Shown here piece after piece: positions 20,505 to 23,852 of a stretch of DNA of 64,000 nt. A program made the translations under genes and the position numbers. Within the stretch, counting starts at the first letter, position 1; each line of letters starts with the position of its first letter. The notes under the pieces are model-generated. The model searched no databases and was not told the DNA's origin. It saw only the letters and a list, made by a program, of their open reading frames with translations. The DNA is from Betaproteobacteria bacterium (GTDB lineage Bacteria > Pseudomonadota > Gammaproteobacteria > Burkholderiales > CAIKXV01): contig CANGYF010000017.1 of NCBI GenBank assembly GCA_947458265.1, forward strand, positions 1-64,000. Reading direction: 5' to 3'.

Positions 20505-21227
20505 TCACGGGTTCTGCGTCCACTCCTTCATCCGCGCGCGCAGCCGGGCGACCGCCTGGCTGTGCAGCTGGCAGATGCGCGATTCGCTGACGCCGAGGAC
20601 CTGGCCGATCTCCTTCAGGTTCAGTTCCTTCTCGTAGTAGAGGCCCATCACCAGCTTCTCGCGCTCGGGCAGGTTGCTGATGGCGGTGACCAGCATCTGG
20701 CGGAAGCCCTTGTCCTCGATGATGGCAAGCGGATTGGACTGGTTGTCGGCGAGAAAGAAGTCGAAGAAGTCGTTGTCGTCGGACTCCTGGAAATCCTCGT
20801 AGTGCAGCAGCTGCGAGCCGCGGGCATCGCTCAGGATGTGCTGGTAGACGCTCAGCGGCATCTCCATCTCGTCGGCCAGCTCGGCCTCGCTCGGCTGGCG
20901 GCCGAACTTCTGCTCGAGCTTCGCCACCGCCGCCTCGATCTTGCGCAGGTTCTTGCGCACGTTGCGCGGCAGCCAGTCGGCGTGGCGCAATTCGTCGAGC
21001 ATCGAGCCGCGGATGCGCTGCACGGCATAGGTTTCGAACTGGGCGCCCTGCGTACTGTCGAAATTGTCCGAGGCATCGAGCAGGCCAATCAGGCCGGCCT
21101 GGATCAGGTCGTCGACATCGACGCTCGCAGGCAGCCGGGTCATGAAGTGATAGGCGATCCGCTTCACCAGCGGCGCCATCTCCTTGACGATGGCATCCTT
21201 GTCGTCTATCGAGGCAATCGGGGGCAT
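20505..21227 (-). CDS. fliA: Flagellar sigma factor FliA (sigma-28)
   Basis: FliA directs RNA polymerase to late flagellar promoters. The 240-residue protein has region 2 (LVKRIAYHFMTRLPASVDVDD, LIQAGLIGLLDA, FETYAVQRIRGSMLDELRH), region 3 and region 4 (LPEREKLVMGLYYEKELNLKEIGQVLGVSESRICQLHSQA). It lies 24 bases downstream of flhG. Its antagonist FlgM is encoded 2 kb away on the other strand. Confidence 0.97.
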   Translation of the reverse strand: MPPIASIDDKDAIVKEMAPLVKRIAYHFMTRLPASVDVDDLIQAGLIGLLDASDNFDSTQGAQFETYAVQRIRGSMLDELRHADWLPRNVRKNLRKIEAAVAKLEQKFGRQPSEAELADEMEMPLSVYQHILSDARGSQLLHYEDFQESDDNDFFDFFLADNQSNPLAIIEDKGFRQMLVTAISNLPEREKLVMGLYYEKELNLKEIGQVLGVSESRICQLHSQAVARLRARMKEWTQNP

Positions 21228-21251: not shown

Positions 21252-22256
21252 TTAGCGCGATACTAGTGCGGTTCGGTCCGGCGAGCCGGTCGGCGACGGA
21301 TTATGGGACGGCCCGTGCGATGCGTCGAGGGAAGAAAGGCGGACCGTTGCGTCCGTACCGTCCCGCCCCCTCGCATTCTGCGCCGGAACGCCGTCGAGCG
21401 CTGCTTCGCCGAGCAGCAGGGCGCACCAGGCATCCGCAGGCGAACCGGGAAGCAGCATCGGCACATCCAGCTGTCCGGCGAGCGCCGCCCCGGCCGCAGC
21501 CGCACGGCTGCCGGGGAAGACGTCGGCGAGCGGGCGATGCAGCCGCTCGGCCCGCGGCACCATCGGATCGGCCGGCACTGCCCCGGCATACTCCACCTGG
21601 ACCTGCAGGAAGCGGCGTGCGGTCTGCGCCACCTTGCGCCAGGCCGATTGCGCAGCGTTCGCGTCCGCAGCGCGTGCCATCCACCACAGGTAGCGCTGCT
21701 GGCCGACCTCGAGCGCAAGCATCTTGAGCGCCGAATAGGCCGCAGTCACCGAGCGCTGGGCATCGGTGGACCCCAGCAGCACGGTACCGGCCTGTGCTGC
21801 CGCCGGCCACCATCGATCGACGCGATCGGAAGGCACGTCAATCAGCACGCAATCGAAGCGGGACGCCAGTTCCGACAGGGCGCGACCGGCGGCGGGTGCG
21901 GCGCCGGGGGCCGGGGCCGGCAGCGGACCGGCCGGACCAAGCCGGGCTGCCGGCACCCAGGTCACGCCGCCGCTGGCGTGCAGCAGCACCTCGTCCAGCC
22001 GCCGCTGTCCCGACAGCGCCTCGGCAAGGTCGCCGCGCGGGAACAGGCCGAACCATCCTGCGCCGCTGCGCATCTGCGGCTGTGCATCGACCACCAGTAC
22101 CGAATGGCCACGGCGTGCCATCGCGTCGGCGGTCGCAGCGACCAGCGCCGTCTGGCCGATGCCGGCGTCACCGCCGATGAACAGGGCGCTGCGCAGGGCG
22201 GAGCCGCCCAGCAGGCGGCGCAGGCTGGAGGCCTGGTCTTCGACAGGCGCGATCAT
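21252..22256 (-). CDS. flhG: FlhG/FleN-like MinD-family protein with degenerate P-loop
   Basis: FlhG (FleN) is a MinD-type ATPase that limits flagellar number and antagonises the master regulator. Position between flhF and fliA is diagnostic. The 334-residue product keeps the fold marks (VLVVDAQPQ, FDCVLIDVPSD), but the deviant Walker A is GGDAGIGQT at 28-36: both lysines of KGGxGKT are gone and the catalytic one is Gln35. ATP use is therefore doubtful. The C-terminal ~60 residues are low-complexity. ATG 22256 is preferred over an upstream GTG at 22289. Confidence 0.83.
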   Translation of the reverse strand: MIAPVEDQASSLRRLLGGSALRSALFIGGDAGIGQTALVAATADAMARRGHSVLVVDAQPQMRSGAGWFGLFPRGDLAEALSGQRRLDEVLLHASGGVTWVPAARLGPAGPLPAPAPGAAPAAGRALSELASRFDCVLIDVPSDRVDRWWPAAAQAGTVLLGSTDAQRSVTAAYSALKMLALEVGQQRYLWWMARAADANAAQSAWRKVAQTARRFLQVQVEYAGAVPADPMVPRAERLHRPLADVFPGSRAAAAGAALAGQLDVPMLLPGSPADAWCALLLGEAALDGVPAQNARGRDGTDATVRLSSLDASHGPSHNPSPTGSPDRTALVSR

Positions 22257-22291
22257 GCCGACGCCGCCACGATGGAGCGCCACCGGCACGA

Positions 22292-22358: not shown

Positions 22359-23852
22359 TCAGACACCGGAGCCTCCGCTGGCTGCCACGAGGGCGAACTC
22401 GTCGCCAGCCGGGGTGAACGGATTGGCGGCTTCGCGGCCGCGCAGCGCGCGGTCAATCAGGTACAGCGGATTTGGCAGGTGCAGGTCTTCCGGTACCCGC
22501 TGGCCGTTGGTCACGAAGCACACGGGCAACCGGTGGCGCAAAACCACATCGAGCACGCCGCCCAGCGAAACCGCCTCGTCGATCTTGGTCAGGATGCAAC
22601 CATCGAGGCCGCCGGCGGCATAACGCATGGCGACGTCCTCGAGCGTGCTGCCGGACGAGGCAGCGGACAGCAGCAGAAGCCGCTGCACGCCGCGCCCCTC
22701 GCCCGTCAACAGCGCTGCCTGCTCGGCGAGCCTGCGGTCGCGCTGGCTCATGCCGACGGTGTCGATCAGCGTCAGGTGGCGCGAAGCCAGGTCGCCCAGG
22801 GTCATCTGCAGCTCGGGCTCGTCGCGCACCGCGATGACCGGTACCCCGAGGATGCGGCCATAGATGCGCAACTGATCGAGCGCGCCGATCCGGAAGCCGT
22901 CGGTGGTGAGCAGTGCTGCGCTGGCCGCCCCGCGCGCGAGCACGCAGCGCGCGGCCAGCTTGGCGACGGTGGTGGTCTTGCCGACACCGGTCGGCCCGAC
23001 CAGCGCGAACACGCCGCCCTGCTCGCACGGGTCGGTCGGCTGCAGCAGTGACTTCAGCCGCTCGAACAGCAGTGTCCGCACCTGTCGCCATGCGGTGTCG
23101 ACCTGGGTCGACGGCGCCGCCCCGGGCAGGGCTGCATTGCCGTCCTGTCCGGCCACGGTCGCATCGGCAGGATCCGTCCGGCCGACCGCATCGGCCAGTT
23201 CCCTTGCCAGGACGGTGCTGAAGCCCGCCGCCAGCAACCGGCGCATGAGCTCGGTCTCCACCGGCGAGCGTCGGGCGCGCTCGCCCCAGGCGAATCCGGC
23301 GAGCTGGTTCTCGACCAGCGACCGCAGCGAGCGGACCTCGGCTGCAATCTCGGTCATGGCGACGCTGTCGGCGGCAGCCAGCGCCGGCGCGGCGACCGGG
23401 GCTGGCCCGGAAACGACTGGAACCACCGGTGCCCCCGGAGCGGCACTGGCGGCGTCGGCGCCAGCCACTGCTGCCTGGGCTGCCCGGTAGTCTGTTGCCG
23501 GCAGCGGCGCGGGCGACGGGCGAGCGCCCGCAGCGAGCTGCGCGGGCGGCCACTGCGCGGTGGACGCCGGCGCAGGCCGGCGCACGACGTCCGGCAGGTC
23601 CGGATCGTCGACCAGTGCCGCCTGCGTGTAGGCGTCGATCGCCGAGCGCCGGAGCGGCTCGACCTCGGCCCGCGGCGGGAACGGCGTCGGCAGCACCGCC
23701 GGCTCGGCACCCGATTCGATCATCGCCACCAGTTCCACGCCGCCCGAGGGCAGCCGCCGGTTCGACAGGATCAGCGCATCGGCGCCGAGCGCATCGCGCA
23801 CCTCGCGCAGGGCTTCCCGGGTGGATGCCGCCTGGAAGCGCCGGACGATCAT
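22359..23852 (-). CDS. flhF: Flagellar polar-placement GTPase FlhF
   Basis: FlhF is an SRP-family GTPase that selects the flagellar pole. The 497-residue protein has the B domain start MIVRRFQAASTREALREVRD, a long Pro/Ala-rich linker (~residues 50-165), an N domain and the G domain. G1 is GPTGVGKTT at 286-294; LIDTVGMSQRD and ILTKIDEAVSLG mark later G motifs. The start overlaps the flhA stop by 4 bases. Confidence 0.96.
   Translation of the reverse strand: MIVRRFQAASTREALREVRDALGADALILSNRRLPSGGVELVAMIESGAEPAVLPTPFPPRAEVEPLRRSAIDAYTQAALVDDPDLPDVVRRPAPASTAQWPPAQLAAGARPSPAPLPATDYRAAQAAVAGADAASAAPGAPVVPVVSGPAPVAAPALAAADSVAMTEIAAEVRSLRSLVENQLAGFAWGERARRSPVETELMRRLLAAGFSTVLARELADAVGRTDPADATVAGQDGNAALPGAAPSTQVDTAWRQVRTLLFERLKSLLQPTDPCEQGGVFALVGPTGVGKTTTVAKLAARCVLARGAASAALLTTDGFRIGALDQLRIYGRILGVPVIAVRDEPELQMTLGDLASRHLTLIDTVGMSQRDRRLAEQAALLTGEGRGVQRLLLLSAASSGSTLEDVAMRYAAGGLDGCILTKIDEAVSLGGVLDVVLRHRLPVCFVTNGQRVPEDLHLPNPLYLIDRALRGREAANPFTPAGDEFALVAASGGSGV

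Follow-up and report, generated by a model that had tools for sequence, protein, structure and literature searches.

A probable pseudo-ATPase FlhG that keeps the FlhF-activating helix, and the recurrence of this state across the sampled Burkholderiales

According to a 2025 review (PMC12826062), FlhG is a MinD-like ATPase that controls the number and placement of flagella through its ATP-driven dimer, and as far as covered here that review names no lineage in which the protein lacks its ATP site. The flhG gene in the 64,000-nucleotide stretch of DNA analysed here (the window) raises the question of what such a protein is kept for: an earlier note had observed that its P-loop lacks both Walker A lysines, and had proposed that it acts without ATP cycling or is a decaying or repurposed regulator of FlhF or of the flagellar activator. 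The gene (21252..22256, minus strand; 334 amino acids from the ATG at 22256, picked over a GTG at 22289 that is open as well; translation containing ...LFIGGDAGIGQTALV...) occupies the family's usual place, directly downstream of flhF (22359..23852, minus strand), which encodes the partner SRP-type GTPase with an intact P-loop, GPTGVGKTTT, and before the sigma-28 gene fliA (20505..21227, minus strand), in flhF-flhG-fliA synteny. A phmmer search of solved proteins returned Pseudomonas FleN structures as the best sequence relatives, residues 25-273 aligning at E 2.5e-24, and the AF2 model (70 rows; pLDDT 83, pTM 0.80) keeps the MinD fold, Foldseek ranks 1-10 all being FleN or FlhG, with 4rz2 and 4rz3 among them. 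Among profiles, Pfam CBP_BcsQ was barely over cut-off and no FlhG-specific NCBIfam model matched, the best, TIGR01969, falling far below its cut-off. The earlier note had suggested looking for a second, canonical flhG; searching the window's own genome with the protein returned itself and two weak matches, L002 and L003 (E values 0.004 and 0.006 between them), of which the one inspected, L003, carries an ordinary ParA-type KGGVGKT loop, and the window copy is the only flhG detected. We consider it likely, a judgement that applies to the explanation developed below as a whole, that the window encodes a true FlhG/FleN orthologue, but one that has become a pseudo-ATPase.

The loss of the ATP site proved wider than first described. 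The deviant Walker A motif (22149..22175, minus strand, one base off the range originally given) reads GGDAGIGQT where PaFleN has the canonical GGKGGVGKT at the aligned place, with Asp (GAC, 22167-22169) at the first-lysine position and, as the earlier note had it, Gln (CAG, 22152-22154) at the catalytic second one, leaving GDAGIGQT in place of the two-lysine KGGxGK[T/S] signature of MinD/ParA-type proteins. Gone too are the catalytic aspartate of the DxDxG motif, the former Walker A'/switch I now reading DAQPQ (22074..22088, minus strand; canonical DADLG, Asp to Gln), and the switch II pattern DTxAG, the former Walker B/switch II being DVPSD (21825..21839, minus strand; canonical DTAAG). A normal loop in another frame had been named as a possible refutation; the FleN alignment runs through residues 25-273 in the present frame, and therefore no other frame is needed.

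The N-terminal enhancer/activator helix, by contrast with these ATP-site losses, is intact. It reads DQASSLR (residues 7-13; 22218..22238, minus strand), matching the DQAxxLR of the FlhG/FleN family, and its function is known from work on other species (PMC12826062, PMC12327844), its glutamine being reported as co-catalytic for the FlhF dimer (PMC12826062). In Bacillus subtilis, according to a 2025 study (PMC12327844), the Q8A substitution within DQAxxLR resembles an flhG deletion and loss of the membrane helix has a modest effect, while the hydrolysis-dead D65A variant, which is described as a constitutive homodimer and is to that extent not an ATP-free protein, has no discernible effect. The Q8A and hydrolysis-dead results fit the pseudo-ATPase reading.

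Within the genus the Asp/Gln loop is the established state. Nine genomes were matched (the window's included), eight with a readable loop, which is GGD[A/S]G[I/V]GQT in seven (the window's own included) and SASSALGQT in the eighth; neither P-loop lysine occurs in any of the eight, and two further congeners, 83 and 88% complete, gave no FlhG match. Across six of the genomes (all but L011, L009 and L010, the last two being partial), pN/pS was 0.07 (0.074) for the helix, 0.15 (0.149) for the altered loop, 0.31 for the folded part, 0.32 for the core and 0.94 for the C-terminal tail. The window flhG is no dead gene, because the helix is strongly constrained. One same-genus genome also carries a second flhA-flhF-flhG-fliA cluster (L161, G004:C137:1500-8500), whose FlhG is canonical at the ATPase site (SGKGGVGKTT, DADLGL) and lacks DQAxxLR; this cluster may represent a second flagellar system or sit on a contaminant contig.

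How far the state extends was surveyed in the order of the window, taken as Burkholderiales in the GTDB sense (the former Betaproteobacteria, here "betas"). The sample was anchored on FlhF (TIGR03499), which avoids querying with the odd FlhG itself, and 164 of 250 order genomes scored over the cut-off. The gene after flhF was read among the FlhF matches listed (G176 left out), matches from a separate FlhG search were added, and removal of duplicates by genome left 149 order FlhGs (39 families) and 30 from other gammas, with one second copy kept apart. The canonical GKGGxGK[T/S] occurs in 0/149 betas versus 30/30 other gammas in this FlhF-anchored sample. Of the two lysines, the first is present in 15 betas, the second in 41, both in 5 and neither in 98; three betas have no loop at all (L101, L152 and the disordered L155). 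DQAxxLR is found in 142/149 betas versus 24/30 gammas; six of the seven exceptional betas retain the glutamine, as HQA, HQG or DQG, and the six gammas with variants retain the ATPase site. The FlhF P-loop is intact in all 149 betas and all 30 gammas, and there is therefore no general decay of the locus. Mapped on FlhF trees, the fewest changes that account for the pattern are 8 for the first lysine, 14 for the second and 10 for GK, counts in which loss and regain are indistinguishable.

Column conservation followed the same division. Ranked over 300 columns in 146 betas (the three without a loop left out) and 30 gammas, the fixed residues of the helix average rank 6 in betas versus 80 in gammas, the P-loop ranks 154 versus 51, and the helix glutamine is 100% conserved in both; the invariant DQA-LR columns of alignment A2, whose rows were chosen by that motif, were not counted as evidence. 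A second, partly overlapping sample of 80 named loci contained an FlhG in 76, divided by record title and resemblance into 6 gammas and 70 betas, three of the latter being titled otherwise (L228 Gammaproteobacteria, L248 Moraxellaceae, L271 Alistipes). These betas, which include Burkholderia, Paraburkholderia, Caballeronia, Cupriavidus, Massilia and Janthinobacterium as well as Nitrosomonas, Nitrosospira, Thauera, Dechloromonas and Thiobacillus, show GKGGxGK[T/S] in none, both lysines in three and DQAxxLR in 69, the sole exception being a 90-codon C-terminal fragment (L294); five of the six named gammas are canonical, and the sixth is Litchfieldella. The earlier note's observation thus holds, and its interpretation holds in part but was far too local, the state recurring across the sampled order: Asp/Gln, which it had asked about as a clade-wide feature, belongs to the genus, whereas what the order shares is the absence of the canonical loop, in 149 of 149. 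An ATP-free protein is predicted most firmly for the 98 betas with neither lysine, the window's genus among them, while some of the 41 that keep the second (GRxGVGKT) may still bind nucleotide.

A second surface of the protein is probably retained along with the helix. In Geobacillus FlhG, FliY is reported to bind a surface formed by K177, R207 (once printed 277) and F215 (PMC12327844), and according to the same study this C-ring contact is nucleotide-independent in Geobacillus and Bacillus. We mapped these positions through the 4rz2 alignment, counting by hand with a chain offset of 8 fixed by K36 and D60. The YSALK segment of the window protein (21723..21737, minus strand) keeps both its Tyr and its Lys, the latter in the K177 column, and the residues at the three columns are K, K and F, that is, judged by residues only, two identical to the Lys and Phe of the Geobacillus surface and one R-to-K exchange. 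Among the 149 betas the K177 column is Lys in 143 and Arg in 5, the Tyr of the YxxxK helix is present in 143, and the F215 column is Phe or Tyr in 121, the R207 column being mostly Asn or Arg. From the Bacillus and Geobacillus work we infer that beta FlhGs would both bind the C-ring and stimulate the FlhF GTPase. The near-invariance of this Lys and Tyr, with the nucleotide-independent FliY binding, also lends itself to a different emphasis, in which FlhG would be kept mainly as a FliM/FliN adaptor for C-ring assembly and control of FlhF would be secondary. We consider this unlikely: few columns in betas are as conserved as those of the fixed helix residues, and no stretch is under stronger constraint than the helix, either in the genus or in the Halomonadaceae described below.

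The pseudo-ATPase reading must also be weighed against the possibility that a modified form of the switch survives, with the altered loop still binding a nucleotide or some other phosphate ligand non-canonically. The glycines and Thr of the loop are indeed still there, the loop is conserved within the genus, some betas carry GRxGVGKT or GKxxxGKT, and the first Asp of DxDxG is still Asp in 90% of betas. In the window protein itself, however, neither lysine remains, and the catalytic Asp and the switch II pattern are gone as well; moreover, the 149 betas carry 130 different loop strings, which speaks against a shared ligand, and at four beta loci most of the ATPase half is missing, making survival of such a switch a distinctly improbable account.

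These four loci (L101, L152, L240 and L295) keep the helix. In L101 and L152, which come from related genomes, 133-codon ORFs join DQAEGLR almost directly to the YARIK region. In L240, a locus from a Burkholderiales MAG, comparison with L255 shows a gap of about 120 residues running from the P-loop to Walker B, yet the protein shares 63-68% identity with its four closest full-length relatives in the alignment, and its model reaches a pLDDT of 82.8. L295 (Polynucleobacter) is a 185-codon ORF with DQAEGLRRIL near its start and most of the ATPase half missing. Elsewhere the gene is missing from this position: no FlhG follows flhF at three further order loci (L069, L141, L143; a fourth locus ended at its contig) or at four of the 80 named loci, those of Bordetella hinzii, two Achromobacter and Castellaniella. 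At six Bordetella/Achromobacter/Castellaniella-type loci (L286, L288, L289, L296, L141, L143), where no FlhG was found beside flhF, the G domain of FlhF is followed by a long extension, in ORFs of 758-906 codons. None of the 11 FlhFs searched, seven of them without FlhG beside them, contained a fused DQAxxLR-like motif.

Such absences could be taken to mean that FlhG is on its way out of the lineage and that the loop is mutational noise, as the word "decaying" in the earlier note implied, the more so as FlhG evolves faster than FlhF (untrimmed dN/dS 0.20-0.53 versus 0.075-0.39) and the C-terminal tail is near neutral. The genus values given above for the folded part, the helix and the altered loop itself contradict this, as do the retention of DQAxxLR in 142 of 149 order members and the confident fold predicted outside the tail, and we regard decay as very unlikely. 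That the reading stems from an error in sequencing or assembly, or from a contaminant contig, for which nothing speaks beyond the oddity of the loop, is scarcely credible, being refuted by the six other genus genomes with the same kind of loop (seven of eight with the window) and by analogous losses across the order.

The near-neutral tail (21255..21467, minus strand) has no recognisable FlhG/MinD membrane-targeting helix, and its residues 295-318 are modelled with pLDDT below 50. A membrane-helix sequence pattern is absent from all eight genus members (L010 is cut by a contig end). Across the order, a membrane-helix-like pattern occurs in 23 of 29 complete betas with GK versus 21 of 116 without it (Fisher 1e-9); a tree-based test for co-loss of the loop and the membrane helix was not significant, with only three supported independent pairs and little power. 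A coupling of the two losses would accordingly be strong in counts with few independent events behind it.

Taken as a whole, the most probable explanation in our view is that FlhG has become a pseudo-ATPase that keeps the FlhF-activating helix and probably the C-ring face, a reading built on the motif losses and retention, the selection, the predicted fold, the order-wide recurrence, the four ATPase-half deletions and the Halomonadaceae parallel observed here. The MinD fold would survive as a scaffold, with nucleotide binding, ATP-driven dimerisation and membrane targeting given up. Selection retains the DQAxxLR helix, which is proposed to enter the active site of the FlhF homodimer and supply the co-catalytic Gln for GTP hydrolysis, and probably also the nucleotide-independent FliM/FliN face around the YxxxK helix. 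Bound to FliM/FliN without ATP control, FlhG would be expected to deliver the helix to GTP-FlhF at the nascent basal body and so switch FlhF off. The earlier suggestion of a protein acting without ATP cycling, or repurposed as a regulator of FlhF, gains sequence support here, the ATP-site residues being lost order-wide and the FlhF-activating helix kept.

The likenesses to known systems are clear and the differences specific. With the FlhG/YlxH of Bacillus and Geobacillus and the FlhG of Vibrio, Shewanella and Campylobacter, the window protein shares its place downstream of flhF, the MinD fold and the DQAxxLR helix; those proteins, however, are characterised as ATPases that dimerise in an ATP-dependent manner and carry a membrane helix (PMC12826062), whereas the window protein has neither lysine, no catalytic Asp, no switch II pattern and no recognisable membrane helix. 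Pseudomonas FleN, the closest solved structure by sequence and fold, is reported to keep its ATPase, to act on FleQ and to lack DQAxxLR (PMC12713375), and the window FlhG is in these respects its mirror image: ATPase site lost, FleQ not detected, DQAxxLR kept. It likewise shares the fold of the MinD/ParA deviant-Walker ATPases but not their signature lysine, P-loop lysine or switch residues. Walker A mutants of Vibrio FlhG are reported to mislocalise and over-flagellate (PMC7226244), and Geobacillus FlhG K36A to lose GpsB binding (PMC12327844); loss of the ATP site is therefore not free in every context.

Outside the order the canonical site is the rule. In a phylum sample it was present at 5/5 loci of other classes and at 16/16 further gamma loci where an FlhG was recognised (at five loci none was, in some cases owing to a short flank), and among another 25 gamma loci from outside two special families (one of these loci coming from a genome already in the phylum sample) 24 were canonical and one was a truncated ORF. 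The Halomonadaceae (the family of handle G409, 41 genomes, including Litchfieldella, which is Halomonadaceae by NCBI) present a parallel to the betas. FlhC was found in 32 and FlhF in 31 of the 41, with few and weak FleQ matches (7/41, best 1.9e-7). Among the 25 with both FlhF and FlhC, the ORF after flhF carries DQAxxLR in 23 and a canonical P-loop in none, both counts being taken over all same-strand ORFs reaching past flhF (a count in which the loop was sought only in ORFs matching the FlhG profile gave DQAxxLR in 20) and three of the motifs lying immediately after the flhF end. These ORFs measure 155-314 codons from stop to stop, and in nine within-genus pairs pN/pS was 0.04 over the first 10 residues from DQA and 0.44 over the rest. 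We had expected a canonical FlhG in FlhC-lacking Halomonadaceae, wrongly: all six with FlhF (L332-L334, L336, L339, L340) have fliA directly after flhF, with no FlhG between the two, a statement about the locus only. In L326 and L327, too, no FlhG lies between flhF and the next sigma-factor gene.

As to the cause, FleQ was followed by proxy, with PF06490. The window genome (G000) has no PF06490 match at E <= 1e-4, the threshold set for it, and FlhC was not detected there either; that the protein regulates the flagellar activator, as the earlier note had also entertained, is unlikely if FleQ was meant. PF06490 exceeds the Pfam cut-off in 76 of 250 order genomes, with a best value of 5.8e-9, while gamma matches reach 2.9e-23; we infer that the order matches are generic receiver domains, and this makes the test a blunt one. 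Loss of FleQ was considered as the whole cause and rejected: all eight gammas without detected FleQ keep the loop, and therefore FleQ loss alone is insufficient; the 5/5 other-class loci carry the loop too. FlhDC as a direct cause within the betas was likewise rejected, canonical loops numbering 0/60 in FlhC-positive (E < 1e-50) versus 0/89 in FlhC-negative genomes, the latter including those outside the FlhC draw. What may link the cases is that in flagellar systems no longer under FleQ the ATP-dependent jobs of FlhG, as antiactivator and as membrane-bound ATP-dimer, would have lapsed and the help to FlhF in GTP hydrolysis would have stayed.

With more reserve, we lean towards a broader view, in which the whole order, and Halomonadaceae independently or by transfer, would have made an ATP-free protein out of a MinD-like ATP switch, one that serves an SRP-type GTPase as carrier of a single co-catalytic helix. 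The stages would be visible in living species, from an intact ATPase through a full-length fold without the lysines, a protein whose ATPase half is deleted and a short helix carrier (the 155-314-codon ORFs) to loss of the gene, with the stage set in FleQ-free flagellar systems, so that betaproteobacterial flagellar number and placement would be set without an FlhG ATP cycle. The loss of the ATP site in nearly every order member sampled, with the helix kept, suggests that FlhG can dispense with its ATP switch and has its core in the helix. If a whole order lives without the ATP site and keeps the FlhF-activating helix, evolution has run a separation-of-function experiment that shows which part of FlhG cannot be done without. 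For bacteria of the Burkholderia, Cupriavidus, Massilia and Thiobacillus types, flagellar control would then be predicted to differ from the Vibrio and Pseudomonas models, a path to losing flhG, and perhaps flhF, would be seen in lineages with FlhDC-type flagella, and such FlhG proteins should not be annotated as ATPases without caution. We recognised no description of a degenerate FlhG in betaproteobacteria in the open-access literature, covered by titles, abstract starts and term counts (most subscription journals lie outside it), and an earlier mention elsewhere is possible.

Two minor observations may be added. A MAG labelled Bordetella parapertussis (L222, CAMDXD010000040.1) encodes an FlhF that matches the window FlhF at 94%, and is probably mislabelled. 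The sequence GAACCGCACTAGTATCGCG (21255-21277, minus strand), at the 3' end of flhG, is largely conserved, synonymous sites included, in six of the seven same-genus loci shown, and probably serves the downstream fliA as a cis element.
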